IMG/VR virus record: IMGVR_UViG_3300030406_000920
Span: 1-35,423 of that record
Source of the DNA: a virus
Direction: 5' to 3' (one strand)
DNA: 35,423 nt
Every line of letters begins with the position of its first letter. Position 1 is the first letter of the stretch. The notes beneath the pieces are model-generated. The model saw nothing but the letters and a program-made list of their open reading frames with translations. It was not told where the DNA came from and made no database searches. The translations under genes were made by a program, and so were the position numbers. This document shows positions 1,472-17,140 of this stretch, in pieces.

Positions 1472-1613
1472 AGAAAAATGGAACTGGTCTTTGTCAATAG
1501 GTTTTTATCCGGGTATATTATTCGGTATAAGAGCTTATGAAGAAGAAAAACAATTAACATATGTGTTATATCTACCGTTTGTAGACATAGCATTTGAAAT
1601 GCCTTATAATTAA
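1464..1613 (+). CDS. Small protein, 49 aa, unknown
   Basis: A 49-aa reading frame from ATG 1464 to TAA 1613, just before nrdB. An in-frame GTG at 1431 would add 11 residues, but ATG 1464 overlaps the preceding stop by 8 bases and fits operon spacing better. The protein is rich in aromatic and hydrophobic residues (FYPGILFG, YVLYLPFVDIAF), compatible with a small beta-rich or membrane-associated protein, but no clear TM helix is seen. Function unknown. Confidence 0.5.
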   Translation: MDKEKWNWSLSIGFYPGILFGIRAYEEEKQLTYVLYLPFVDIAFEMPYN

Positions 1614-1614
1614 A

Positions 1615-2583
1615 ATGAGTTTATTTAAAGAAAGAATACCTTATAAACCTTTTGAATACCCAATATATTATACCGAAGGTTGGTTAAAGCAAGCACAAGC
1701 TTTCTGGTTACACACAGAAATACCTATGTCAGGTGATGTTAAAGACTGGAACGAAAAGCTTACTGATGCAGAAAAAAATTTAGTAGGTAATATATTATTA
1801 GGATTTGCACAAACAGAATGTGCGGTGTCTGATTACTGGACACAAAAAGTCGTGTCATGGTTTCCAAAACATGAGATACAGCAAATGGCTATGATGTTCG
1901 GCTCACAAGAAACAATACATGCTGTAGCTTATAGTTATTTAAATGAAACACTGGGACTGGAAAACTTTGAAGCGTTTTTACATGAAGAGGCGACTGCTGA
2001 TAGATTTGATAATCTGGTTGCTTATGACGGTACTGATCCACGTGGTATTGGCCGTAGCTTGGCTATCTTTTCAGCCTTTGCTGAGGGAGTTAGCTTGTAT
2101 AGCGCTTTTGCTGTTCTATATAGTTTTCAGCTTCGTAATCTTCTCAAAGGAATAGGTCAACAAATGAAATGGTCTGTGAGAGACGAGTCATTACATAGCC
2201 GTATGGGTTGTCAATTATTTAGACATATGTGTGACGAAATACCTGATCTAAAACAAGAGTGTAAAGAAGATATATATGCAGCTGCTAAAATTATGTTAGA
2301 GCTAGAAGAAAAATATATAGACAAAATGTTTGAGATGGGTGATATAGAAAACTTATCATCAAACGATTTAAAACAATTTATTAGAAAAAGAACAAATGAA
2401 AAACTTGTTGAGCTTGGTTACACGGATAAAAGACGCTTTTTTAATTACGATGAAGAAGCTGCTGCGAATCTTGATTGGTTTTATCATCTTACAGGTGGTC
2501 ATACTCATACTGATTTTTTCGCTATTAGGCCAACTGACTATAGTAAAGCAAATGAAAACGAAGACTTTGAAGATATTTGGTAG
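1615..2583 (+). CDS. nrdB: Class I ribonucleotide reductase, small (R2, beta) subunit
   Basis: A 322-aa ferritin-fold R2 subunit that makes the tyrosyl radical used by NrdA to reduce ribonucleotides. All expected metal ligands are visible: E68 (AQTE), E99 and H102 (SQETIH), E157 (FAEG), E191 and H194 (RDESLH). Y106, four residues after H102, corresponds to the radical tyrosine Y122 of E. coli, so a conventional diiron or Fe/Mn-tyrosyl enzyme is expected. ATG 1615 is chosen over an upstream in-frame ATG at 1594 because 1594 would run into the preceding gene. The gene precedes nrdA, separated by a 71-codon gene, so the usual nrdA-nrdB order is reversed. Codon use changes over about 1995-2155 (see findings). 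Confidence 0.95.
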   Translation: MSLFKERIPYKPFEYPIYYTEGWLKQAQAFWLHTEIPMSGDVKDWNEKLTDAEKNLVGNILLGFAQTECAVSDYWTQKVVSWFPKHEIQQMAMMFGSQETIHAVAYSYLNETLGLENFEAFLHEEATADRFDNLVAYDGTDPRGIGRSLAIFSAFAEGVSLYSAFAVLYSFQLRNLLKGIGQQMKWSVRDESLHSRMGCQLFRHMCDEIPDLKQECKEDIYAAAKIMLELEEKYIDKMFEMGDIENLSSNDLKQFIRKRTNEKLVELGYTDKRRFFNYDEEAAANLDWFYHLTGGHTHTDFFAIRPTDYSKANENEDFEDIW

Positions 2584-2585
2584 AC

Positions 2586-2801
2586 ATGAAAGAAAGTAAA
2601 TTAATAGAAATGAAAAAGAAAATAGATGCATTAACAAATGTTGTTAGTCATTTATTAAAACAAGTTGCTGCTAATGAAACATTATGTAAAGGAACGCTAA
2701 CTGCTTTTCAATTACATATAGGTAAAGATGAGTGGACTAAACTTGTAGAAGAATTAAAACAAAAAGAAAAAAGAATAATTACTGAAGAAGATGTGGAATA
2801 A
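2586..2801 (+). CDS. Small helical protein between nrdB and nrdA, unknown
   Basis: A 71-aa, highly charged, probably all-helical protein. It starts 2 bases after the nrdB stop at ATG 2586 (an in-frame TTG at 2577 overlaps nrdB and is less likely) and overlaps the nrdA start by 11 bases. Residues 1-33 form an amphipathic Leu/Val-rich helix typical of short coiled coils, and the C-terminus is acidic. No family recognised. Its position inside the nrd operon suggests co-expression with the reductase, but that is context only. Confidence 0.65.
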   Translation: MKESKLIEMKKKIDALTNVVSHLLKQVAANETLCKGTLTAFQLHIGKDEWTKLVEELKQKEKRIITEEDVE

Positions 2802-4485
2802 CAATTGGGTTAAAGGTGTGGACTACCCGAGTTGGGGTGACACAGAAGTATATAAGAAAACTATAGGTGGAGGTTATTTATATAATGGTGAAACACCTAA
2901 AGAAGCTTATATGAGAGTTGCTACTACTGTAGCTAAACGTTTAAAAAAACCAGAGTATGCTGAAACATTTTTTGATTACATATGGAAAGGCTGGTTGTGC
3001 CTTGCTTCTCCGGTTCTTTCAAATACTGGAACTGATCGTGGGCTTCCTATTTCTTGCTTTGGTATTGACGTTGCTGACAGTATTATTGACATTGGTCAGA
3101 AAAATTTGGAGATGATGCTACTCGCTAAACACGGCGGTGGAGTTGGTATCGGTATAAATCAAATCAGACCCGCCGGTGCAAAAATAACAGGTAATGGAAC
3201 AAGCGACGGAGTTGTGCCTTTTTGTAAAATATACGATAGCACAATACTTGCCACTAATCAAGGATCTGTCAGACGAGGAGCTGCATCAGTTAACATTAAC
3301 ATTGATCACCCCGATTTTGAAGAGTGGCTCGAGATTAGAGAACCTAAAGGAGACGTTAACAGACAATCGCTTAACCTACATCAATGCGCTGTCGTCGGCG
3401 ATAAATTCATGCGAAGACTTATTAGCGGGGATAAAAAAGCTAGACAGAAGTGGGGAAAGCTATTACAAAAACGTAAAGCGACTGGAGAACCTTATATACT
3501 TTTTAAAGGTAACACTAACAAACAAAATCCAGCGGCGTACAAAGACAACGCTTTAAAAGTACATATGACAAATATATGTAGTGAGATTACATTACATACA
3601 GATGAAAATCATTCATTCGTTTGTTGTCTATCTAGTTTAAACCTAGCTAAGTATGACGAGTGGAAAAATACAAATATTATTTATGACTCAATATGGTTTC
3701 TTGATGGAGTGCTTGAAGAGTTTATACAAAGATCTAAATACAGAAAAGGTTTTGAAAACTCTGTAAGAGCTGCTGAAAAAGGTAGAGCATTAGGTCTTGG
3801 TGTATTAGGTTGGCATACATATTTACAAGAAAAAGGTTTACCATTTGAGGGTTTATTATCACAATATGAAACAAGAAGAATTTTTAGTCAAATTAAAATC
3901 GAGTCTGAAAGAGCTAGCATGGCTCTTGCTGATGTTTATGGAGAACCTCTTTGGTGTGTCGGTACTGGCTTTCGCAATACCCATTTACGTGCTATTGCTC
4001 CCACTGTATCTAATAGTAAGTTGTCTGGGAATATCTCTCCCGGGATTGAACCGTGGGCAGCAAACGTATTTACGGAGCAGTCTGCTAAAGGAACATTCAT
4101 AAGAAAAAATCCTACACTAGAAAAAGTGTTAGACAAATTAAAATTAAATACAAAAGAAATATGGGACAAAATATTAGCAGATGGTGGTTCGGTCCAGGAT
4201 ATAAAAGAATTAGACGAAGATACCAAAGAAGTATTTAAAACATTTAAAGAAATAAACCAGTTAGAATTAGTAAGACAAGCTGGTATACGCCAACAGTATA
4301 TAGATCAGAGTGTAAGTTTAAATCTAGCTTTTCCATCTCAAGCAGATCCTAAATGGATTAATCAAGTACATTTAGACGCATGGAAAAAAGGAATTAAAAC
4401 ATTATACTATATGAGAACTGAATCAGTACTACGTGGAGACATAGCTGCTAAGGCTATGGAAGAGTGTGTGGCGTGTGATGGATAA
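2791..4485 (+). CDS. nrdA: Class I ribonucleotide reductase, large (R1, alpha) subunit lacking an ATP-cone
   Basis: A 564-aa catalytic subunit that reduces ribonucleotides with NrdB. Key residues are present: C89 (ISCF) and C278 (FVCC) form the redox pair, N261-I-C263-S-E265 is the radical-site motif, and TLYY near the C-terminus matches the tyrosine pair of the radical path. The C-terminal CVAC supplies the swinging dithiol reduced by thioredoxin or glutaredoxin. The conserved AIAPT...GIEP loop lies at about 400-428. The protein begins directly in the R1 helical domain, so the N-terminal ATP-cone that mediates dATP inhibition in E. coli (761 aa) is absent, suggesting loss of that feedback. 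The stop overlaps the A-tract of the opposite-strand terminator. Confidence 0.95.
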   Translation: MWNNNWVKGVDYPSWGDTEVYKKTIGGGYLYNGETPKEAYMRVATTVAKRLKKPEYAETFFDYIWKGWLCLASPVLSNTGTDRGLPISCFGIDVADSIIDIGQKNLEMMLLAKHGGGVGIGINQIRPAGAKITGNGTSDGVVPFCKIYDSTILATNQGSVRRGAASVNINIDHPDFEEWLEIREPKGDVNRQSLNLHQCAVVGDKFMRRLISGDKKARQKWGKLLQKRKATGEPYILFKGNTNKQNPAAYKDNALKVHMTNICSEITLHTDENHSFVCCLSSLNLAKYDEWKNTNIIYDSIWFLDGVLEEFIQRSKYRKGFENSVRAAEKGRALGLGVLGWHTYLQEKGLPFEGLLSQYETRRIFSQIKIESERASMALADVYGEPLWCVGTGFRNTHLRAIAPTVSNSKLSGNISPGIEPWAANVFTEQSAKGTFIRKNPTLEKVLDKLKLNTKEIWDKILADGGSVQDIKELDEDTKEVFKTFKEINQLELVRQAGIRQQYIDQSVSLNLAFPSQADPKWINQVHLDAWKKGIKTLYYMRTESVLRGDIAAKAMEECVACDG

Positions 4486-4561: not shown

Positions 4562-4846
4562 TTACCATTTTACTTTATTTGCCCAGTATGCAGCGGACAT
4601 TTTACCTTTCTTAATATTTTTAGCGTGACGAGCTTTAAAACTTTTACGTCTTGCTTTTGATTTAGCATCTTGCTTTTTACCAGCAGTACTTACTCCTTGC
4701 TGACCAAATCTAATTATTTTTTCTCTACCTCCTTCACAAGCTTTAACTATATGTGATTTAGTTTTGTGACCAGGTGTTTTTCTAGGTTTATTACATTTTA
4801 AAGTAGACTTATCTACTTTTAAAATTGGTGGTAATTTATATGCCAT
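4562..4846 (-). CDS. Small Lys-rich late protein, 94 aa (conserved phage type, function unknown)
   Basis: A 94-aa very basic protein, last gene of the late operon. ATG 4846 gives a natural start (MAYKLPP); longer in-frame starts would overlap the upstream gene's coding sequence. Visible features: two Cys (C18, C37), a central KACEGGREKIIRFGQQG segment (35-51), then a Lys/Arg-rich stretch KARRKSFKARHAKN (64-77) and the end SAAYWANKVKW. From memory, proteins of this layout recur as uncharacterised small proteins in marine phages and some giant viruses, but I assign no function. Charge and position suggest a DNA- or virion-associated late protein (inference). Confidence 0.75.
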   Translation of the reverse strand: MAYKLPPILKVDKSTLKCNKPRKTPGHKTKSHIVKACEGGREKIIRFGQQGVSTAGKKQDAKSKARRKSFKARHAKNIKKGKMSAAYWANKVKW

Positions 4847-4850
4847 AATA

Positions 4851-5135
4851 TTAATCGCCGCAAGGCTTTCCTGTTTTAACGTTAATCCAATTTTCTTTTT
4901 CAAACCAGTCTCTAAGTGTTGCTCCTTTTTTACGAGCACCTTTAACATTAGACTTGCTTGATCTCTTATACTTTCCTTTTTTACCAGCAGACTCTTTAGC
5001 ACGTACAACTTTAGCTCTTTCAGCTTTACTCATTGATCTTACTTTAGCAGCAGGTAAACAAACCTTTTTAGTTCCTCCACCCTTTACTTTACTTTTCTTT
5101 TTCTTCATGAATGGAGAGTTGCCAGAATACATCAT
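4851..5135 (-). CDS. Small Lys-rich late protein, 94 aa (DUF5872-like C-terminus)
   Basis: A 94-aa extremely basic protein. It begins MMYSGNSPF, has a Lys-rich middle (KKKKSKVKGGG, later GKKGKYKRSSKS), C26, and ends with LRDWFEKENWINVKTGKPCGD (residues 74-94). The closing W...V.TGKPCG pattern resembles the end of DUF5872-type proteins of phages and large DNA viruses (from memory). The start overlaps the upstream stop (TAATG), indicating coupled translation. It lies between two other small basic Cys-containing proteins. DNA binding or nucleoprotein packaging is plausible but unproven. Confidence 0.72.
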   Translation of the reverse strand: MMYSGNSPFMKKKKSKVKGGGTKKVCLPAAKVRSMSKAERAKVVRAKESAGKKGKYKRSSKSNVKGARKKGATLRDWFEKENWINVKTGKPCGD

Positions 5136-5548
5136 TACTTTTTCTTTTTAGATTTACCCATTTTACTTGGTCCACCAGCCTTAGTACATCTTACACCCCA
5201 TCCAGAAGCGTAAGCGCTAGGCCAAACATCAAACTTTCTTTTAGCCGCTTCTTTACAAGGACCACTTATTTTACCAAACAAAGGTGTGTCAGGCGCCATT
5301 TTAAAAGCAGCGTTATCTGCCTCGCTTTTTTTCCTATTCTTCCAATCATTTACCATACCTTGTTCTTCTTGTACAAAACTTTGATAATTTTCTGGTGTCA
5401 ATTTACCTTTATCTAAAAGATCTTTAGCATAAGATATATTATCATTATACGTTTGATTAACTTCTTCCATAGATTTATTAGGAGCTGGCTCAGGCTGTCT
5501 GCTAAATAAATTACTATATCTTTTTATTAGGTTTTTAAGATTACTCAT
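5135..5548 (-). CDS. Small late protein with PSAYASGWGVRC motif, 137 aa
   Basis: A 137-aa protein in two parts. The N-terminal about 85 residues are helical and charged, with a Pro-rich linker near 19-24. The C-terminal about 45 residues carry GPCKEAAKRKFDVWP and SAYASGWGVRCTKAGG, with C98 and C121, and end in KKKK. The F-x-V-W-P-S-A-Y-A-S-G motif recurs, from memory, in small uncharacterised phage proteins, often near Lys-rich partners like the two genes that follow. ATG 5548 overlaps the stop of the endolysin gene by 4 bases. Function unknown; the paired Cys could bind zinc. Confidence 0.72.
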   Translation of the reverse strand: MSNLKNLIKRYSNLFSRQPEPAPNKSMEEVNQTYNDNISYAKDLLDKGKLTPENYQSFVQEEQGMVNDWKNRKKSEADNAAFKMAPDTPLFGKISGPCKEAAKRKFDVWPSAYASGWGVRCTKAGGPSKMGKSKKKK

Positions 5549-6162: not shown

Positions 6163-6561
6163 TTAAAATTGACTTGCGGCATTTACCTCATCAACCGCTT
6201 CTTGTATTTCATTTAAATCCGCCGGTAGCATTAAGTCTAGTCCTGCTTTAAAAACGATTTCTTTTATACCGTCTTTAAATATAATTAATGTTGGCGCCAT
6301 ACGTACCTTGTATTTCTTTTTAGCAGCTGGGCACGCAGCTATATCTGCTCTATAATATATAACGTCTTTTAGTTCTGACCATTGCTCAAATTTATTTGCG
6401 TCGTTAAACTTAGCATAAAACTCTACAATCACAGGCTTTGTTTGATCATCACCAAAAGCTTGTCTTTCATTTATTTTATTATCAAAATTATTATCAGTAA
6501 TCCACTCTTGAGCAGACATGTTAAATGATATTAATAATAAAATTATATTTAAGTATCTCAT
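6163..6561 (-). CDS. Exported thioredoxin-fold protein without the CxxC active site
   Basis: A 132-aa protein with an N-terminal signal peptide (about residues 1-17, MRYLNIILLLISF...SA|QE), so probably periplasmic. The body follows the thioredoxin pattern: PVIVEFYAKF (43-52) matches the strand before the active site, and RMAPTLIIFKDG (87-98) contains the cis-proline P90 and following strand. Where thioredoxins have CGPC this protein has NDAN (53-56), and its only Cys is C77. It should therefore lack dithiol-disulfide exchange and more likely acts as a binding or chaperone module. It lies in an envelope/lysis cluster. A divergent thioredoxin-like family with another activity is possible. Confidence 0.72.
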   Translation of the reverse strand: MRYLNIILLLISFNMSAQEWITDNNFDNKINERQAFGDDQTKPVIVEFYAKFNDANKFEQWSELKDVIYYRADIAACPAAKKKYKVRMAPTLIIFKDGIKEIVFKAGLDLMLPADLNEIQEAVDEVNAASQF

Positions 6562-6562
6562 A

Positions 6563-6853
6563 CTATTTTTGTTTTTGTATCTCGTACAATCTTTCGTCTA
6601 TTTTGTCAATAGTTTCTTTTATTTCTTCTACATCTTCTTGAGTGTCCATAATTGTTTGACGAATCAACTCATCTTTTAAATCATATTCAACTCTGTCAAT
6701 AGCTGGTAAAGGTAATTCTTTAGCTTCGGCTATGTCAGCTTGTAATCCAAACCACATACCAGCTAGCGTTACTACAAAACCAACTATCATACCTATTGTT
6801 TTAAGATCTAATGTTACTTTAGTTTCTTCTCCTATTTGTGGTGCTCCTGCCAT
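6563..6853 (-). CDS. One-TM protein with C-terminal coiled coil (holin or inner-membrane spanin candidate)
   Basis: A 96-aa protein with one hydrophobic segment at about residues 19-38 (IGMIVGFVVTLAGMWFGL) and a charged C-terminal helix at 60-95 with heptad-like Ile/Leu spacing. An N-terminal TM followed by a coiled coil is the layout of inner-membrane spanins, and small one-TM proteins can also be pinholins or holins. Its place between an outer-membrane protein and the endolysin supports a lysis role. No signal peptide or Cys. ATG 6853 is adjacent to the upstream stop. Without experiments I cannot choose holin over spanin. Confidence 0.6.
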   Translation of the reverse strand: MAGAPQIGEETKVTLDLKTIGMIVGFVVTLAGMWFGLQADIAEAKELPLPAIDRVEYDLKDELIRQTIMDTQEDVEEIKETIDKIDERLYEIQKQK

Positions 6854-6854
6854 T

Positions 6855-8027
6855 TTATCTAAGTGTTATGTTCAGGCCAACTGAACCATTATAAATTTTA
6901 CTATCCCAAAATTTAGTATATTCTCCTTCAAAGAATACACCTATTGATCTACTAAGTTTCCATCCAAAAACTACACCAGCTTGATAGTCTTCCCATTGCT
7001 CTAAATCAGAGTCTTGTCTTAATCCTCCAAGACCCCAGTTGTTTCTATTTAAATAACTAAAATCAACGTCACCTTCTACGTACTTATGGTGTGGTAATAA
7101 ATAGCTACCAAAAGCATGAAGCCAGAAATTATTTTTATAATGATAAAAGTCAAAACCGACCACAGGTGAAACAACTCCAAATGGATCTAATAAATCCCAT
7201 TGCTCATTATTATAACGATTAATTAATGATTCAAATATAGTATCACGGAACTGTAAATCAGTATAAGCTACTTCATTTCCTTGTGGATCGTACCAGTAAT
7301 AGTCATAAACATCTTCACCATCAATATTAATAGTAACCCATTGATCAGTATAACCATATTGATAACCTAACTGATACCAATAATTTACTGGCCAACCATT
7401 ATCGTCTGTTTCATTTAACCATATTTCAATTGGATTATATCCATATGCTCTTTCATGTGTACGATAAATAGCTCCTGCAGATATACTAAACTTCTCACCA
7501 ATAGGTAATTTAGCTCTAACTTCAGCTGATTTATAATTAAAATTAATTCTACCTTGCGCTCTACTTTCTAGTTTTACCATGTGATATTTACCACTATGTT
7601 TAATAAAGTACCTATGGTTTTTATATATCTCATCTCTTGATCTTTCTTTTTCATAATGAAATACATATTCTAAACCTTTAACAGGAGAGTTAGTAGCAAT
7701 TAAACCTACATTATTTTCTGTCCCATCATAATAGCTTTTACTTTTTATTTCGTAATCAAACCTAGCTAGCTTACGTATACCAAAACCATATCTATAATCA
7801 AAATCATAATAGTCCGTACCATCTACAACAACAGGTGGTGTATACAAGTTGCCATCAGGATTTGTTCTTACAAAATAATCTGGTGGATTTTCTTTTGGAT
7901 TTTCTAAATCACCAGCTATATATATAGTTCCATATTTTAAAAAATCTTTATATAATTCTTTAAAAATATTTTGAGAACTTGTAGTGAAAGTTATTAATAA
8001 TAATAGTAATGTAAATAGTTTTTTCAT
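6855..8027 (-). CDS. Predicted outer-membrane beta-barrel protein with signal peptide
   Basis: A 390-aa protein with a clear signal peptide (MKKLFTLLLLLITFTTSSQ, likely cut before Gln 19). The mature part is rich in Tyr, Trp, Asn and Gly with alternating hydrophobic/polar strands, such as YHMVKLESRAQGRINFNYKS and AGVVFGWKLSRSIGVFFEGEY, and ends in a strand (SVGLNITLR), as expected of an outer-membrane beta-barrel. No known phage family is recognised. Phage outer-membrane proteins such as Lom or receptor-masking proteins alter the host surface; a role in lysis, superinfection exclusion or receptor blocking is possible here (inference). An exported beta-rich virion protein is the main alternative. 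Confidence 0.65.
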   Translation of the reverse strand: MKKLFTLLLLLITFTTSSQNIFKELYKDFLKYGTIYIAGDLENPKENPPDYFVRTNPDGNLYTPPVVVDGTDYYDFDYRYGFGIRKLARFDYEIKSKSYYDGTENNVGLIATNSPVKGLEYVFHYEKERSRDEIYKNHRYFIKHSGKYHMVKLESRAQGRINFNYKSAEVRAKLPIGEKFSISAGAIYRTHERAYGYNPIEIWLNETDDNGWPVNYWYQLGYQYGYTDQWVTINIDGEDVYDYYWYDPQGNEVAYTDLQFRDTIFESLINRYNNEQWDLLDPFGVVSPVVGFDFYHYKNNFWLHAFGSYLLPHHKYVEGDVDFSYLNRNNWGLGGLRQDSDLEQWEDYQAGVVFGWKLSRSIGVFFEGEYTKFWDSKIYNGSVGLNITLR

Positions 8028-8063
8028 TATTTATAGTTTTTAAACATTAGTTTATACAACAAT

Positions 8064-8387
8064 TTATTCCATGCTTTTTGAATCTTGTCTATTCCTTTTT
8101 TTATTTTTTCTTTCATTTGTTTTTTTAATTATATAGTTTACTATTAAACCACCAAGCGTAGTGGCTATTAAATCTTTAGTATCGAACTGTCCATACCTTA
8201 CGTAATCATATGTTTCTTTAGTAAACCCAGCTATAAAAGCTGATGACACGCCTGGTAATTCTAGTTTGTTTGCTGCAGCAGATGTTGTAGCACCTGCCGC
8301 GAAGTGATAATATTTATCTACGCCTATAGGCTGTGAACTAGCACAACCCACAAACACCACCGCAAATAGGGCAAGTATTTTTTTCAC
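8064..8387 (-). CDS. YfiM-like (DUF2279-type) lipoprotein
   Basis: A 107-aa lipoprotein. It starts at GTG 8387; the ATG at 8391 is out of frame. The signal sequence MKKILALFAVVFVGC ends in a lipobox-like FVGC, with C15 the lipidated residue. The mature part has DKYYHFAAGA (H28), GFTKETYD (K57, E58, D61) and D72, matching the H...KE..D...D pattern I associate with YfiM-like lipoproteins. A short hydrophobic stretch (73-86) precedes a basic tail. As a lipoprotein in the lysis region it is also an outer-membrane spanin candidate that could pair with the coiled-coil protein at 6563-6853. The 36 bases after it (8028-8063) hold no gene. Confidence 0.65.
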   Translation of the reverse strand: MKKILALFAVVFVGCASSQPIGVDKYYHFAAGATTSAAANKLELPGVSSAFIAGFTKETYDYVRYGQFDTKDLIATTLGGLIVNYIIKKTNERKNKKRNRQDSKSME

Positions 8388-8395
8388 ACATATCT

Positions 8396-11300
8396 TTATT
8401 TTATTTTTAAACCTGTTCCTTTTATTTTTAAACCAGATCTTAATCTGAGTTTGTTTTTACTTTTTTTAGTTGTTTCGTCTTTATCAATACCTATTTCCCA
8501 AGAAGACCAACCACCTAACAACGCCATTCGTTCCCACATAGCCAAGTCTTGACTAAACGCATCGTCAATGTTTATCATTTTCTTTATAGCTCTATCAAGT
8601 GGAATATTAAAACTAGCTGATATATAATTAGCTATAGCTAATATAGCAGGGTTTTGTATATCAAATCCCATAGACTTCATCTTATCTAAATCATATTTAA
8701 AAGATCTATTAGCTTGATTTATTCTTGAAAGCTTAGAAGATATAGGTGGTGATAATCTACCTAACTCATAAGCTATCTTATCATAGTTAGGATTTTTCTT
8801 TTTACTTTCTTTTATACCTCTTAGTATAGCGTTTTTAACTACAGACACTGCTGCTCCACCAAAACCTAAACCTCTTAATAATGAATCAGCCATACCATTT
8901 GCAATGCCTATAGTTTTTTCATTTTCTTCTTCTTCATCACTATCACCGAAGGCTATAGCAAATAACGCTTGTTGTAACGCGTTGAATATTAAGTTTTGTA
9001 CAAACGAGTAATACATTATTTTAGAAACGTTTGTTCTCCAGTCACCTCTACCATTTTTAAGATCTGATATAGCTTTACCTATTAATCTATTATACTGCAT
9101 TGGTGTATTAGCAAATGCTAATATAATTCTACCAAGTGGTCCAGCTTGTTGCTGTGATATACGATCAGGTCTACTAGACTGCTGCGACTCTTCTGCTATT
9201 TCTCTAAAATCTAAAAACGCTTGTTCTTCAGCCGCTTTTTGATCCATACCTTGTTTAAGATATGTGTTGATTCTGTTTCTATAAAACGTAGCACCACCAG
9301 AAGCAATAGCAAAACTATCTGCTATTTGTGTAGGTAAAAATCCAAACGCCAACATTTTAGATATAATAGCTCTTGGTCCTCCTTCTCTAGCCATGTCAGC
9401 AATATCAGATTCATTAACATTGAACCTTAAACCTCCTCTTCTTTCTTTCAAGAACGGTGAGTTCATAATTTGTAAAAAGTCTTTCCAATATTGTTTTTGA
9501 TCTGCAAAAGCTTTACCAGCAGCTAAAATATTATTATCACTAAAGTTTATAAAGTTTGCAGCAGATATAGTTTGTAGTAATGCAGATCTAGTATTAAAGA
9601 ACATTATTGTACCAATACTATTTGTTAACCAATCAGTAAATCTACCTGTTAAGCTATCACCAGAAAAACCTCTATTTCTACCACTCTTCATTCTCTTTAA
9701 CATGTCCTCTAAAGCTAATCTATAAGATCTACCAAAAGCAGCTTCAAGTTTATTCATGTTCTTATCTGAAAATATTATGTCAACATTTTTCTGCCACTGC
9801 TCTAAATACTTAGCTCGTTTAGCTGTATCTAGTGTATCAACTAAATCTGTTGTAATAGTACCCGCCAACCAACCAGCTTTAGGTTGATTATATTTTTCAC
9901 CTTTTAATATATCTATTAAACTGTCTGCGAATACTTGTAGTTCATTATTAGAAGTTATATAGTCAGTAAGTTCTTTTAAATCTGTTTTTGAAAGGCCAGG
10001 TATATTCATACCTTGTTTATTCCATATATAAACTCTTACAGCTTGTTCAACAGTAAAATCTTCACCAGGCATTTTCTTTTTTAAATTTCTTGGAACAATA
10101 CCTAGCTTTTCTTTTAACGCATTGTAATCTCCTTGCATAGATATTCTATCTAAAGATATACTTGCCATGGCTCTAGCATAAGGATCTAACAAGTGTGTTT
10201 TAATCCACGCCATTTGTGCGTCACCAGTTTTACCCTTACCTAATAAATAATACATTAATCCTACAAAATCATCAGCAGATGGTGGTATAAAGAATTTAAA
10301 TTTACCTTTGCTTGATCCAACAACTTGAGCCTTGGCAGGTGAATATTCTTTTTCCATACCAATACCAGTCTTGCCTTCAATCATTGCGTTAAACTCTCTA
10401 TCTAACGATTTACTAAATCTTATTTTAGCTTGCTGCACCTTAGAGTTAACATCAACCTGCTCTAATACTTTAGCAACTGCTTTAACATTTTTAACCGCGT
10501 CATCTACAAAATAAAAATCATTATATCCTTCAGCTGCTTTACTAATAACCCAGTTTGCTTTAGCTTGAGGTCTACCGTCTTCTAACCCGACTATGTTATC
10601 TAATGGTAGTTCTACTCCAATAGCTTTTAAAAAATCATATATAGATTGAGCTGACGCTTGGGGTCTAGCTGTTAATACAAAAATGTTTTCATTACCAAAT
10701 TTCTTAATAGCTTTTCTAAGTCTAGGAACTAGTGGCCCGGGTTTTCCTTTTACAACTTTAGTAAATTCACTAAAGTCAAACTCAGCTCCTTCACGTTTTA
10801 ACTTTTCATCTTGTACTGCAAATTCAGCAGGCGTTATTTTTTTAGTCTTACCGTCAGGCATTGTAACTATAATTTTACTTTTGCTAAAAGCTAATGTATC
10901 ATCAAAGTCATATATACTTATACCCTTAGTTTCAGCGTTAATATCTCTAGCATTGTCTAATGCTTTGTCAATCATACGCATGTTGTCTATAACTGTTTCA
11001 TTAGAAACACTTTTACTAAACTGACTAATCTTAGGTTGTTTCTTATTATTTTTAGGAGCTACTTGCACTTGAGCTTTATTTAAAGCTGGAGTGGTAGGTT
11101 GTCCTTTAACATTTAAGTTTAAAACTTGAGCTGCTGTTTGATTTCCTCTAAGCATAATACTATTAGGATCAATACCACCTCTAGTGTTAGCTACATTAGG
11201 ATTAAAATATCTTAACCATATAGTTTGATCTAGCGTCCAGCCTTCTGGAGCTTTAGCAACATAATTATATTTAACACCGTTAACTCCTATACCTTTTAGT

Positions 11301-14300
11301 TTTTTATCATCATAAGATCTTAAACCTCCTTGAAAATAATTATTCTCTATACCTTTATAAGTATCTTTATTTAGAGTTTGGTTAGCAGCTTGTATAAATA
11401 AATATTTAGCAACCATACTAGCAGGTAGAGTGTGCTCTTCAGTTAATCCACCTGTTTTATCTATGCTGTAAAATCTTATTGGTGCAGATGTTCTAACAAA
11501 ATGACCTTGATAAGCACTTGTAGAAGATAACAATGCAGCTACAAAAGGTATATTAGCTTTATCTTCCTTCATCAAACCTTCAAACGCTTTAAATATTTTA
11601 TATAGACCTTTTAACTTTTTATCTTGTTTGTCATTAAATGTTTCATCATTAAGCTTGGTTTCTATTTTAGTATAACTATCTTTACTTACCGCAGCTGCAA
11701 TGTCAGTGTCTTCTTTTGCAAAGTCAATCATCTGATCTACAATAGCTTCAACCTGTTCGTTATTTAAAAAAGCAAAATTACCAGCATATGTTCTTAATCT
11801 TTTTGTTTTACCGTCTTCAAAAAACGTTACATCAAATTTATCTACAGCTGGTAAACCTTCTTCATCTATATATTCTTCTATGTATTTACCTTCTATAATA
11901 CCAAGCTCTTCAATAGTTAAACCTTGCGTCGTACCTGTAAATGTTCCATAGTTTCTCCAAAATACTTCTGGCAATGATTTAGAAACACCAGGTTTTAACA
12001 GCCAAGCTTTAAACTGTTTTCTACCATCATCAGTCTTCATATCTATAGGAGTAATACCAGCGTTTTCTAATATGTTTTTCCAAGTATCTGTTGTTCCTGA
12101 AAATACCGGTTTACTAAATTTAAGTAATGGCGCTTTTGCCGGAGCAGTCTTTTGTCTTACAGTAGCTTTTCTTGTAGCTGCTTTTTCCGGTGTTGTAGTT
12201 TGTTCTTGTACAGCTTGGTCTTGTTGTTGATCAACAGCTTGACCAAACCCAGCCAACGCCATGTTTCTAGCTAGAAGCTCTAATACACCTTTTATATATT
12301 GAGACTCAGGTCCTCTTGGTACATAGTTTTTATCTACCTTATTATTAGTAATACCAGATGATTTTAAAAATCTATTTCTATTACCTGGTTTTATTCTATA
12401 CTGTAGATTATTGTTTATCTTTTTTTGTTTACCTTTTGCGTCTAAAACTTTATCGTATTCTGTGTTTAAAAAGTTTCTTGATCTTATACCTGCTGATTGA
12501 CCACCTTCTAGTTTAGCTTTAAGTTTACCAACAGCTTTTGTTTGAACAACATCTGCATTACCTTTTGGCCTAGTGTTTATAAGTCTATCTACATTTTTTA
12601 ATATAAACATTTGTATTTTAGATATGTCATCACCTTTTCTTAAGTTATCTTGCGGTTGTGTAATACGTGATACAGGGATTCCAAAATATTTTGCTAATGT
12701 TTCGTATGGCGCTATCTGTTGTAATTCCTTAAACGTTAAGTTAGCATCGCTTAGATCAATGTTATTCTCTTTTATTTTTCTATCTATTTCTTCTTGAGCT
12801 TCTTGTTTAACCTCTGGAGGTAATATATCAAATATATCTATAGTAGGTTCTACTTCTTCGACAACAGCTTCTTCAACTACTTCTGTACTAGGATCAACAA
12901 CTTGTTGAGCAAGCTCACTGTCAGTACTTTCAGTATCAAGTTTCTTTTTACTTCTTTCTATAACATCAGTTAGATCAAACTTTAATTGACTACCTGCATA
13001 TGTACTCCAGTTATCATTTATACGAGGATCAAACTTATCTAATAAGCCTCTATCAATAACTCTTTCTCTAGCAACCTGATAACCTTCGTCATATGTTATA
13101 TTTCCAAGCCCAGCTCTACTATCAAAGCCCATTGTTTTTAAACCTACTTTAGCGGCTGCGTCTATAAGTACATCTTCTATAACCTGCTTCTCATAACCTT
13201 TAGCATTTTTTAATTTTCTAATTAACTGCTCGTTAGTAAGCGTATCAAGATTAAATTTACTTTTATCAAGTCTAGGTGCTCTAGATGTTTGGTCAATAGC
13301 CGCTGAGGTTTTAATTTCTTCTTTTTGTTCTTCAGGAACAGCAGTAAGATTTTTACCAAAAGTAGTTTTCTTGTTTACAAAATCACTAAGGAAATTAAAC
13401 ATGTCAAAAGAAGTTTTAAACGGATCCATTATACCAGCAATTGCAGGGAATCTTTTTCTAAACAAACCATTTAAAAAATATTTCATACCATGCATATCGG
13501 CAAACATGCTCTGTTTAATATCACCAGCTATTATAGACTCACCAATTACTGTAAGTATTTCATCAACATCTACAACACCGTTTTCATCAGTATACGCTTT
13601 ATCAATAACATTTTTAATTCTATTGTAAACTTTTTCAGGAAACAAACCTTGCTGAACTTTTTTACCTAATACATTGAGCATGCTTTCAGTAGCCGCCTTT
13701 GCCTCAGGAAATAAATCACTAAATACTTTTTTACTATTTATTTCCATGTGAAGCAACTCGTGAAGCGGTGAAATAGCTGCTCTAAATCTTTCATAGGAAT
13801 CAGCTGTTTGTAGTGATATAATTTTACCAGTTGTATCTGTTATAGCTATTTGTCCAGCTACAGAGTCAAACACTTTTGTGTTGTTAGCTACTAGTTGGTT
13901 TGTAGTTTCATTAACAAAAGCATAACTATTTCTTAACCTATTAGCAGCTTGCTCATCTAAATTGTTTTCTTCAATATATTCGTTAACAGCTTGTATATCT
14001 TTAAGTTCAAGAACTTCACCTTGATAATGATGCTCTGCTAGCGATAAAGCAGCCGCATAAAGATTCATCATTCCGTTAGCTATTGTAGGATTAGTTAGCA
14101 TTTTACCTGATCCTTCTAAGCTTTTTGTATACTCTTTATATTCTTTATATTTTTTATTATTTAAATACTCACCTAACTTTTCATTGTCTGCTATAAGTTC
14201 TTTCTCCATAGCTTCCAATCTTTGTTGAAAACCTTCAACACCAAACTGAGGATCATATATCATTTTATAGTATTCTTTTTCTTTAAAATTTAAAGCAGCT

Positions 14301-17140
14301 CTATCCTCTATATATTGTTGTTGTTCTTCTCTAGACATTGAAGCCCACTTTTGATAAGTCATAAATTGATCAAACGCTAGCTCGTCTTGAAGTTTTTTCT
14401 TTTCTTTGTTTAATTGTTTTCTTTCTTGAGATGAAATATTATCTTTTGATAACATATCTTGTATTTCAAAAAGCCTTGTTGATTTCTTTTGGTTTTCTTT
14501 AATATCTTTGTAAGTTCTATACTCACTTTGAATAACATTGTTAATATTACCCAACACTTGAGGACTTTGTAAACCTAAACTTATTATAGCACTTTTAGTA
14601 ATTAAATCAGCATCAACACCTTCCATAATAGATTTGCTATTACCCATTATCATTTTATCCATAAGGTTGTGTCCGGTTTGAGCAGCAATTTCTTCCATGA
14701 CCTCTATACCTATGTTTTTACCCATGCCTAATCCAGCATAACCATATTCTTTAAATCTATTTTTCCAAAACTGCTTTGTGCTCCAGCCCTTTGCAAAAGT
14801 GTCATCTATTCCTGTACGCATTGAATATTTATTAATTCTTCTTGCTCCATTAATATAACTTAATGTACCTAGTTTTTCACTAAACATTTCTATAGCACCA
14901 TAAGTATTTCCAGTAAGAGCTCTTTGCCATCTACTAGAATCAGCAGCGTCTTCATAATAATCAAGCTGTTGCAGCAACTGTTGTCTTAAAACTTCATCAG
15001 TAGTATTTTCTAATTGATTATTTATATTAGCAATTTGCTGTTCAGCTATTTTATATGTTTGTTCTAGTTCACCTAGTTTAGTACCACCTGAATAGCCATA
15101 AAATAAAGCCATTGAAAGACCAGTTGCTTTTTTAGCTGATTGTATTTTTAAGTATTTATCAGCAGCCCATTTAGCAGCCGGGTTTGCACTTTGTAAATCT
15201 TTTAATACTTTTTTGTTTGACAAAATTTGTCTTGGCGTAAATGCTGTTGGTAATAATTTTTGTGGTACCAACTTTCTCATTGCTTTAAATTTAGCAGCAG
15301 GTCCTAATACAGATAAAATACTAGGCGCGGCCTCCATTATAGTTTGTGTAAAATACGTGCCTATATCTCCCCAATTTTCAATATCTTTTACTGACATAGA
15401 CTTTGCTAAACCTGCTTTGTATTCAGCAGCTACGTTATAAATATCTTGCGAAGACTCTAACAGTGTTTCTATATTATTAGGATCGTCTATACCTCTAGCG
15501 TAATCAATTAAATTAAATGCACTACCCATGCCGTAAGCAGTTGGTTGCATTATAAAAGTTTGGAATTGAGCAGCAAGAAACTCTGCTAGTCCAGCAGATA
15601 GTTTAGCGCCCATGTTGTGATTCATTTGAACACTTGACATCATTAGATTTAAATTATCTAAATTAATACTAGTGTCTTCTAGCTGTTTAGCATAGTCTAT
15701 TGTAGACTGTATATTTTTTTTCATTACATCATAATCTGCTTTTATACCAGACTTATGATAACTATTTAAAGCTTCTTCTTTTTGGCCTTTTAGTTTTTGT
15801 AAATAAATTTCTTGCTCAGGGTTTAAATTTTCTCTTGATTCTAATACTTGTATTTGAGTGTTTAGAGTTCTTATTTCTTTTAAATACGGAGCTGATTTTT
15901 GATTTATATATGCTTGTTGTTTATCAAGTTCTCTAACAAAATCATTATATACAACCGTGTTTTGGTCAACGTATTTAGCTATTTCACCTTCTCTATCAAA
16001 TCTTAAAAGTTGATATTTTCCAGTTAAATCTACACCTTTGAATCTTGGAGTTTGATCTTTGTCTAAAGTACTTTTATTATTAATAGCTTCTCGCACGTTG
16101 CTTCTACCTATAGAAAAACCTCCTGTTGCTGGGTAGTCTAAAACAGTATCGCCTCTATCTGAAAAAGGTATTTTATATGTGCCACCATCAACCATGTTAC
16201 CAACTAAAGCTTCTATTTCACTAGCACTAAACTCAAGCTCTGCTAAATCTCTTGCGTATTGATCTTTAACTCTTTGGTTATATGCTGCTATATCTTTTCC
16301 TTTTCTAGCTATATCTTCTGGTAAAGAAGAAAACTCTAGTTTTTCTTCCATCTCATCAGTAAGACCAAGATCTCTTTTATATTTTCCAGTTATTTTATCT
16401 ACCTTTCTTTCTTTTTCTTTAGTTATAAAGTTAAATATATTCTCACCATACTTTTCTCTAACATCGTCTAGTGTAATATTATCCATGCCTTTTTCTTTTA
16501 AAAGCAATATTAAGTCTGCAGGCAGCGGAGGTTTTTTACCTTCTTGAATTTGTTTAATTGTTTCTGGTATCTCAAAAGGATTAAAAACTGCTTTTTGTAT
16601 TTTTTTAGTACCGGGAATATTCTCATCGTAACCAGAAAATATATAATCTATTATTTCTCTTTCATAATTTTCAGGAACAACCTCATCTCTTACAGCTTCA
16701 ATTTCTTTTTTATAACCTTCTAAAATAGGATCTTTTTTCTTTTTTACAGTTTCTAACATCAAGCTATCATCGCCTAAATCTTCAACTTGTATATTAAGAT
16801 TATTATTTTTTGCATACTGATCAAAGTCTATTCCTTTAAAATCATCTAACTGTGCAAGAGTATTATTATACTCATCTTCATAGATATAATAAAAGTCTGA
16901 TTGTCCTTTTTTATTTTTAAAAGGAAGCTGTATAAATCTATTAGGTTTTTCTTCTTCTTCTAAAGATATATTAAACTCCTCTAAAGGTTTGTCCTCTATG
17001 GTTACACCTACTAAATCTACTACAGGCTTAGAGTCTTTTCTACGTTTATATTCACGCACAACTGATTGTATCTCTTCAAAAGATCTACCATCGGATTTCA
17101 TTTGTTCTACAATAGAACCTAAACTAAAACCATCTATCAT
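8396..17140 (-). CDS. Giant polyvalent virion/ejection protein (2914 aa) with zincin and HAD phosphatase motifs
   Basis: By far the largest gene. The N-terminal about 500 residues are charged and coiled-coil-like; hydrophobic helices follow at about 600-700. A zinc-metallopeptidase motif HELLH sits at H1127-H1131, with a DEILTVIGE helix about 60 residues later able to supply a third ligand (gluzincin style). A HAD-type phosphatase domain spans about 2075-2235: DFDDT (D2078, D2080), LTARP, a Lys in KANWV, and FVDDA (D2213, D2214). An EEHTLPAS segment lies between the two motifs. The C-terminal about 500 residues contain SRPDRISQQQAGPLGR, ILAFANTPMQYNR and hydrophobic helices, a signature I associate with large phage polyvalent proteins thought to be ejected with DNA. 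It lies in the virion operon. No DxDGD RNA-polymerase motif was seen. Confidence 0.8.
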   Translation of the reverse strand: MIDGFSLGSIVEQMKSDGRSFEEIQSVVREYKRRKDSKPVVDLVGVTIEDKPLEEFNISLEEEEKPNRFIQLPFKNKKGQSDFYYIYEDEYNNTLAQLDDFKGIDFDQYAKNNNLNIQVEDLGDDSLMLETVKKKKDPILEGYKKEIEAVRDEVVPENYEREIIDYIFSGYDENIPGTKKIQKAVFNPFEIPETIKQIQEGKKPPLPADLILLLKEKGMDNITLDDVREKYGENIFNFITKEKERKVDKITGKYKRDLGLTDEMEEKLEFSSLPEDIARKGKDIAAYNQRVKDQYARDLAELEFSASEIEALVGNMVDGGTYKIPFSDRGDTVLDYPATGGFSIGRSNVREAINNKSTLDKDQTPRFKGVDLTGKYQLLRFDREGEIAKYVDQNTVVYNDFVRELDKQQAYINQKSAPYLKEIRTLNTQIQVLESRENLNPEQEIYLQKLKGQKEEALNSYHKSGIKADYDVMKKNIQSTIDYAKQLEDTSINLDNLNLMMSSVQMNHNMGAKLSAGLAEFLAAQFQTFIMQPTAYGMGSAFNLIDYARGIDDPNNIETLLESSQDIYNVAAEYKAGLAKSMSVKDIENWGDIGTYFTQTIMEAAPSILSVLGPAAKFKAMRKLVPQKLLPTAFTPRQILSNKKVLKDLQSANPAAKWAADKYLKIQSAKKATGLSMALFYGYSGGTKLGELEQTYKIAEQQIANINNQLENTTDEVLRQQLLQQLDYYEDAADSSRWQRALTGNTYGAIEMFSEKLGTLSYINGARRINKYSMRTGIDDTFAKGWSTKQFWKNRFKEYGYAGLGMGKNIGIEVMEEIAAQTGHNLMDKMIMGNSKSIMEGVDADLITKSAIISLGLQSPQVLGNINNVIQSEYRTYKDIKENQKKSTRLFEIQDMLSKDNISSQERKQLNKEKKKLQDELAFDQFMTYQKWASMSREEQQQYIEDRAALNFKEKEYYKMIYDPQFGVEGFQQRLEAMEKELIADNEKLGEYLNNKKYKEYKEYTKSLEGSGKMLTNPTIANGMMNLYAAALSLAEHHYQGEVLELKDIQAVNEYIEENNLDEQAANRLRNSYAFVNETTNQLVANNTKVFDSVAGQIAITDTTGKIISLQTADSYERFRAAISPLHELLHMEINSKKVFSDLFPEAKAATESMLNVLGKKVQQGLFPEKVYNRIKNVIDKAYTDENGVVDVDEILTVIGESIIAGDIKQSMFADMHGMKYFLNGLFRKRFPAIAGIMDPFKTSFDMFNFLSDFVNKKTTFGKNLTAVPEEQKEEIKTSAAIDQTSRAPRLDKSKFNLDTLTNEQLIRKLKNAKGYEKQVIEDVLIDAAAKVGLKTMGFDSRAGLGNITYDEGYQVARERVIDRGLLDKFDPRINDNWSTYAGSQLKFDLTDVIERSKKKLDTESTDSELAQQVVDPSTEVVEEAVVEEVEPTIDIFDILPPEVKQEAQEEIDRKIKENNIDLSDANLTFKELQQIAPYETLAKYFGIPVSRITQPQDNLRKGDDISKIQMFILKNVDRLINTRPKGNADVVQTKAVGKLKAKLEGGQSAGIRSRNFLNTEYDKVLDAKGKQKKINNNLQYRIKPGNRNRFLKSSGITNNKVDKNYVPRGPESQYIKGVLELLARNMALAGFGQAVDQQQDQAVQEQTTTPEKAATRKATVRQKTAPAKAPLLKFSKPVFSGTTDTWKNILENAGITPIDMKTDDGRKQFKAWLLKPGVSKSLPEVFWRNYGTFTGTTQGLTIEELGIIEGKYIEEYIDEEGLPAVDKFDVTFFEDGKTKRLRTYAGNFAFLNNEQVEAIVDQMIDFAKEDTDIAAAVSKDSYTKIETKLNDETFNDKQDKKLKGLYKIFKAFEGLMKEDKANIPFVAALLSSTSAYQGHFVRTSAPIRFYSIDKTGGLTEEHTLPASMVAKYLFIQAANQTLNKDTYKGIENNYFQGGLRSYDDKKLKGIGVNGVKYNYVAKAPEGWTLDQTIWLRYFNPNVANTRGGIDPNSIMLRGNQTAAQVLNLNVKGQPTTPALNKAQVQVAPKNNKKQPKISQFSKSVSNETVIDNMRMIDKALDNARDINAETKGISIYDFDDTLAFSKSKIIVTMPDGKTKKITPAEFAVQDEKLKREGAEFDFSEFTKVVKGKPGPLVPRLRKAIKKFGNENIFVLTARPQASAQSIYDFLKAIGVELPLDNIVGLEDGRPQAKANWVISKAAEGYNDFYFVDDAVKNVKAVAKVLEQVDVNSKVQQAKIRFSKSLDREFNAMIEGKTGIGMEKEYSPAKAQVVGSSKGKFKFFIPPSADDFVGLMYYLLGKGKTGDAQMAWIKTHLLDPYARAMASISLDRISMQGDYNALKEKLGIVPRNLKKKMPGEDFTVEQAVRVYIWNKQGMNIPGLSKTDLKELTDYITSNNELQVFADSLIDILKGEKYNQPKAGWLAGTITTDLVDTLDTAKRAKYLEQWQKNVDIIFSDKNMNKLEAAFGRSYRLALEDMLKRMKSGRNRGFSGDSLTGRFTDWLTNSIGTIMFFNTRSALLQTISAANFINFSDNNILAAGKAFADQKQYWKDFLQIMNSPFLKERRGGLRFNVNESDIADMAREGGPRAIISKMLAFGFLPTQIADSFAIASGGATFYRNRINTYLKQGMDQKAAEEQAFLDFREIAEESQQSSRPDRISQQQAGPLGRIILAFANTPMQYNRLIGKAISDLKNGRGDWRTNVSKIMYYSFVQNLIFNALQQALFAIAFGDSDEEEENEKTIGIANGMADSLLRGLGFGGAAVSVVKNAILRGIKESKKKNPNYDKIAYELGRLSPPISSKLSRINQANRSFKYDLDKMKSMGFDIQNPAILAIANYISASFNIPLDRAIKKMINIDDAFSQDLAMWERMALLGGWSSWEIGIDKDETTKKSKNKLRLRSGLKIKGTGLKIK
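8399..8434 (-). repeat. Tandem 15-bp repeat encoding a duplicated GLKIK tail
   Basis: The 3' end of the giant gene holds two identical copies of GGTTTAAAAATAAAA (8434-8420 and 8413-8399) spaced by 6 bases, a 21-base period. They encode GLKIK-GT-GLKIK immediately before the stop. The repeat keeps frame and looks like a protein-level tag rather than a DNA site. Confidence 0.85.

Follow-up and report, generated by a model that had tools for sequence, protein, structure and literature searches.

A conserved gene module for predicted inner-membrane, exported and outer-membrane proteins beside the putative endolysin gene of phages likely to infect marine Bacteroidota

The analyzed DNA (the window; 35,423 nt, the whole of the 35.4-kb virus record IMGVR_UViG_3300030406_000920) carries its virion genes on the minus strand, encoding a terminase, a portal, structural proteins and a giant protein of 2914 aa. 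Directly downstream, on the same strand, lies a cassette of six genes, encoding a lipoprotein, a barrel protein, a one-TM protein (TM1), an exported thioredoxin-fold protein (Trx), a short peptide and an M15 peptidase (Table 1). The initial annotation had placed the first four of these in a row, followed by the peptide and an endolysin; all six ORFs were confirmed in this arrangement. From the barrel gene to the M15 gene the reading frames are spaced by 1-2 bases or show small overlaps, and the gap between the lipoprotein and barrel genes is 36 bases. The position of the cassette after the virion genes suggests that it is expressed late. The relatives of the terminase belong, in every case with a recorded host, to phages of Flavobacteriia (Flavobacterium, Cellulophaga, Tenacibaculum and Maribacter), and the host is therefore likely to be a marine member of the Bacteroidota.

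Table 1. Genes of the cassette and their predicted features
Product	Position	Strand	Features
Lipoprotein, 107 aa	8064..8387	-	GTG start; lipobox FVG|C15; optional neighbour, outside the core
Outer-membrane beta-barrel protein (predicted), 390 aa	6855..8027	-	N-terminal signal peptide; AlphaFold2 model
TM1, 96 aa	6563..6853	-	one N-proximal TM and C-terminal coiled coil
Exported thioredoxin-fold protein (Trx), 132 aa	6163..6561	-	signal end ...SAQ; Pfam Thioredoxin match; no CXXC
Basic peptide, 49 aa	6012..6161	-	outside the module
M15 peptidase, candidate endolysin, 154 aa	5545..6009	-	Pfam and PHROG matches; no signal peptide

The AlphaFold2 model of the 390-aa protein (mean pLDDT 74.8) contains approximately 12 long strands. 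The best matches to this model among PDB structures are outer-membrane (OM) barrels, albeit remote ones, with TM-scores of at most 0.52 and 6-11% identity among the matches listed. Protein A0A516LKJ4 (342 aa) of BFVD is probably a true relative, as judged from the models (Foldseek E-value 1.6e-26; 24% identity over 392 columns). The structural matches, PDB and viral, bear out the earlier prediction of an OM beta-barrel: the model and the signal peptide place the protein in the same class as NanC, the EspP beta domain and OmpG-like porins, from which it differs by this low similarity and by the lack of any Pfam family match. A sequence search of the PDB also gave no notable match. The barrel has at least 214 relatives in IMG/VR. 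The motifs RxHxxxYGYNPxE, FWxH and FSY are kept over deep divergence, and many residues are invariant.

Trx matches the Pfam Thioredoxin family (PF00085) with an E-value of 3.4e-07, better than the curated cut-off, and its AlphaFold2 model (pLDDT 80.8) has hundreds of thioredoxin-fold matches in the PDB, the best Foldseek match being Trx1 of Caulobacter (6esx; 5.9e-07). The segment preceding the cis-proline (R-M-A-P) is conserved as well, and the thioredoxin fold proposed in the initial annotation therefore stands, with one refinement. The position of the CXXC site reads NDAN or NEAN, and no CXXC was found in any of the 21 aligned members or in the distant members examined; on this evidence, the protein should be unable to act as a classical thioredoxin. 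It further differs from PF00085 proteins in being exported and in having a conserved C-terminal (K/Q)F, with L220 as the exception in this tail; a GLDL/GISL motif is conserved as well.

TM1 has both features ascribed to it previously, a single TM and a coiled coil. One TM was predicted in all 215 clustered ORFs, located N-proximally, and the conserved, charged C-terminus is coiled-coil-like, with E56, K60-D61, K84 and D86-E87-R88 invariant in the alignment. No Pfam family was matched. Members of the family show weak matches to PHROG holin (best 4.1e-05) and Rz-like families, the likeness to spanins being at the level of the coiled coil only. From these properties TM1 may be i-spanin-like or holin-like; no other holin or membrane candidate was found in the window's lysis region. 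Since neither TM1 nor the barrel matches a Pfam family, routine annotation would list the module as a set of unrelated hypothetical proteins.

The M15 peptidase (Peptidase_M15_3, 3.9e-17; phrog_894 endolysin, 2.3e-31) is probably the endolysin of this phage, judging by these matches. The 107-aa lipoprotein, the only lipobox candidate found in a scan of the minus strand of the window, has a DKxxHFxxG...KExxD pattern and a hydrophobic C-terminal stretch. This pattern is shared with lipoproteins of the DUF2279/YfiM type (YfiM of E. coli), to which the family is weakly similar. Only 3 of 17 members match DUF2279 (best E-value 0.0029), there are weak VanZ matches too, and the window protein itself gave no DUF2279 match at 0.1. 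Its similarity to Cor (phrog_1119, E-value 0.32) is at chance level. The lipobox cysteine is kept in 7 of 17 aligned relatives, the family being optional and mostly without a lipobox. The window protein can be called a lipoprotein but is an inconstant member of the cassette. As a unimolecular spanin would unite a lipobox and a C-terminal TM in one protein, it would be the window's sole candidate for such a role, though one from this optional family. The 49-aa peptide (start taken as 6161, as the start given by the ORF caller, 6182, overlaps trx) was considered as a part of the module and rejected, because tblastn synteny located its gene elsewhere in relatives, in some loci on the opposite strand and beyond the gene for a ribonucleotide reductase.

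Conservation of the cassette was examined in IMG/VR using the barrel (214 stretches) and Trx (125 stretches), 80 loci being kept from each scan. HMM mapping revealed the full triad of TM1, Trx and barrel in 222 fetched loci, a number in which loci from separate scans may be one contig. TM1 and trx are adjacent (60 bases or less) in 219 of 221 cases, with a median overlap of 1 base. As a guard against selection bias, a further set of 80 loci was picked by M15 alone (relatives with at least about 75% identity). The triad is present in 68 of these, and a 69th (L222) becomes complete once L141, another piece of its contig, is added; in 8 the module is cut short where the locus or contig ends, and only 3 (L208, L220 and L256) truly lack parts, two of which (L208 and L256) retain TM1 with neither Trx nor barrel. 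A table of gene orders, compiled with a wider Trx profile in order to catch distant Trx proteins, contains four arrangements: (i) barrel>TM1>trx>M15, (ii) TM1>trx>barrel>M15, (iii) M15>barrel>TM1>trx and (iv) M15>TM1>trx>barrel. The linkage has therefore been kept through rearrangement. The fourth order was found, where M15 was mapped, in L168 and L176-L181, whose barrels are approximately 36-41% identical to that of the window; in L168 and L178 each of the four genes is separated from the next by 1-2 bases.

The values of dN/dS for the barrel, TM1, trx and M15 genes range from 0 to 0.21 (0.06-0.16 for the barrel alone), and all four are under purifying selection. With such values, and with the triad in so many loci, the cassette is not a chance assembly. 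Homologues in which the four genes were never kept together had been named as evidence against it; this objection fails for three of the four, as the barrel, TM1 and Trx do travel with M15, while the lipoprotein does not follow them constantly. Gene content thus indicates that the conserved unit consists of TM1, Trx, barrel and M15, with the lipoprotein as an optional neighbour.

In the class with the order TM1>trx>barrel, the barrels are 41-83% identical to that of the window, the Trx proteins just 22-45%, and the contigs examined have a different portal family and different tail genes; the triad occurs in no fewer than two types of virus that differ in portal family. Loci with the order TM1>trx>barrel>M15 form one clade in the TM1 tree but are scattered in the barrel tree, which forces at least 4 changes. 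From this conflict it follows that barrels have been swapped between lineages independently of TM1 and Trx. The swapped barrels still adjoin TM1-Trx. Such swapping argues against a finely co-evolved interface between barrel and Trx, or requires that the interface is the conserved part. A smaller-scale case is L048, whose Trx is nearly identical to that of the window (dS 0.10), while dS is 0.98 for the barrel and 0.72 for TM1; this pattern points to recent recombination, with a breakpoint within the module, and to a small-scale mosaic.

The OM step of lysis normally needs an o- or u-spanin. Among 119 distinct modules, 78 have no lipoprotein candidate (o- or u-spanin) within 3 kb, so that the barrel is there the only OM-directed protein recognized nearby. 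We propose, with a probability of roughly 0.4, that TM1, Trx and the barrel perform this step in the phages that carry them. The M15 endolysin would remove the wall; TM1 would be anchored in the inner membrane and extend its coiled coil into the periplasm, in the manner of an i-spanin; Trx, exported to the periplasm, would have no redox role and serve as a binding link or chaperone; and the barrel, inserted in the OM, would replace the o-spanin lipoprotein. After removal of the wall, the three proteins would come into contact and open or fuse the OM. A fixed set of inner-membrane, periplasmic and OM proteins kept with an endolysin through rearrangement and swapping is most readily explained as a working lysis module, and the OM-disruption apparatus put forward in the initial annotation fits the data best in this form, from which the lipoprotein drops out as a general part. 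L256, where a lipoprotein gene stands immediately before TM1 and both barrel and Trx are missing, looks like a substitution, though it is a single case. More tentative is the stricter version, in which an inner-membrane coiled coil, a redox-dead Trx and a barrel form a lipoprotein-free machine that replaces Rz/Rz1 in phages of Bacteroidota. Counting against the triad model are the independent exchange of the barrel, the loci L208 and L256 with TM1 only, and the coexistence of a lipoprotein and a barrel in some loci.

In its layout the module is similar to two-component spanins (lambda Rz/Rz1, T4 PseT.3/PseT.2; PMC6139136): a small, predicted inner-membrane protein with one TM and a coiled-coil-like C-terminus is encoded beside the endolysin, with an exported partner directly downstream. 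The order in L168 and L178 (endolysin, inner-membrane coiled coil, exported protein, OM protein) resembles the lambda arrangement of the endolysin followed by Rz/Rz1. Unlike in these systems, the downstream partner has a thioredoxin fold and no conserved lipobox, and the OM protein is a barrel where those systems have a lipoprotein. A lipoprotein beside or overlapping the i-spanin, as expected of an o-spanin, is not a general feature of the module family, and for this reason we do not class the module as a spanin.

Among the alternatives, it is unlikely, though conceivable, that the module serves superinfection exclusion or surface remodelling, with a late barrel that blocks or masks a receptor or protects the cell, Trx as its folding helper and TM1 as an anchor. 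Phage genes for OM proteins and lipoproteins that act in conversion or exclusion are known (Lom, Cor and Llp), and the movement of barrels between virus lineages is what host-surface genes may show. The location beside M15 in every gene order speaks more for lysis, however, and the barrel shows the same degree of conservation as the endolysin, in both its dN/dS and its invariant residues, unlike a surface protein in an arms race. This alternative also leaves the coupling of TM1 and Trx unexplained.

Rather unlikely, too, is a barrel that weakens the OM alone, as an enzyme acting on lipid or LPS or as a pore, with TM1 as the holin and Trx as a chaperone. OM phospholipase has 12 strands, a count shared by the barrel model, and the deeply conserved motifs would suit an enzyme or channel; nevertheless, no known barrel lipase or deacylase is among the top structural matches. 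The PHROG match of TM1 and its position as the sole membrane candidate in the window favour a holin, but in other virus types holin-like genes distinct from TM1 lie close to it. Near the endolysin, five distinct small membrane proteins were found as holin-like candidates (L208, 7456-7617; L025, 10256-10708; L005, 5753-5977; L052, 1351-1764; L016, 12404-12775), and these, differing between relatives, suggest frequent holin replacement.

We consider it improbable that the lipoprotein and TM1 form an ordinary o-/i-spanin pair, with the barrel and Trx as unrelated cargo. The lipobox protein and the i-spanin-like protein are encoded about 1.5 kb or less apart in the window (TM1 lies 1.2 kb downstream of the lipoprotein gene, on the far side of the barrel gene), and the lipoprotein gene of L256 is placed relative to TM1 as in an o-/i-spanin pair. 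A Tyr/Pro-rich lipoprotein family with a lipobox, encoded near the endolysin in L040 (12508-12930) and 43 other loci, may possibly provide o-spanins in some relatives, and in some loci such a protein and the barrel coexist. Yet TM1 is coupled to Trx, not to a lipoprotein, and most modules have no lipoprotein candidate within 3 kb. The earlier idea of a spanin-like pair plus a barrel is thus unsupported as a general design: most related modules are without the lipoprotein, and where it occurs its lipobox is often absent. A barrel that forms part of the virion or functions during entry is very improbable. Although the module of the window comes immediately after the genes for the virion and the giant late protein, the barrel has a Sec signal peptide and an OM fold, has moved between virus types that differ in their portals, and is missing from the examined cultured relatives with related virion genes.

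Those cultured or complete relatives (phi38:1, phi18:3, elemoE, Gundel_1 and MW202828) have no barrel and, in the parts scanned, no member of the triad; MW202828 alone among them encodes a related M15 peptidase, and the MS/MS-annotated phi18:3 has no barrel homologue. In tblastn searches of annotated phage records, the barrel and TM1 gave no match, Trx gave only matches at the level of ordinary thioredoxins, and the triad was not found. Among genomes representing one per prokaryote species, the barrel occurs at 8 loci, all on MAG contigs, and no host gene for it was found: the phage module is present at those loci for which the neighbouring genes were mapped. Contigs with the module (L161-L164 and L167) were binned in MAGs of Woesearchaeota, Alphaproteobacteria and Maricaulis, probably by mis-binning.

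No paper describing the module, or a phage thioredoxin fold linked to a spanin, was found in the open-licence papers searched. In the set of 677 phages analyzed by Kongari et al. (2018), spanins were not found in 91, among them phages of Bacteroides and Croceibacter; the authors raised in one sentence, without an example, the idea that an OM protein might act as the o-spanin (PMC6139136). In the annotations of the Croceibacter phages P2559S/Y and of the Bacteroides phage B124-14, no similar-looking arrangement is visible at the endolysin. Holins and unimolecular spanins, and no barrel module, are named in the consulted portion of a report on flavophage isolation (PMC8776804). For phages without recognizable spanins, the module is a concrete and widely conserved candidate for the means by which the OM is breached. 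Its defined genes make the idea of an OM protein as o-spanin testable, e.g. in complementation of lambda Rz/Rz1, and, if the proposal is true, it may represent a previously undescribed way of breaking the host OM.

The surroundings of the cassette contain further features. The giant late protein (8396-17140) has a stretch resembling a HAD-type phosphatase by eye (DFDDTLAFSKSK ... VLTARP). Downstream of the endolysin (4562-5548) are the genes of three consecutive small, very Lys/Arg-rich proteins, one of which has a match to phrog_7595 (3.6e-34). Relatives show recurring motifs such as TLKDWFEKENWVNVKTG, and the proteins are possibly DNA- or virion-binding. The ribonucleotide reductase-like genes (1594-4485; ORFs of 329 and 564 aa) are encoded on the other strand and converge on the lysis region, and the 564-aa ORF is convergent in many relatives too.
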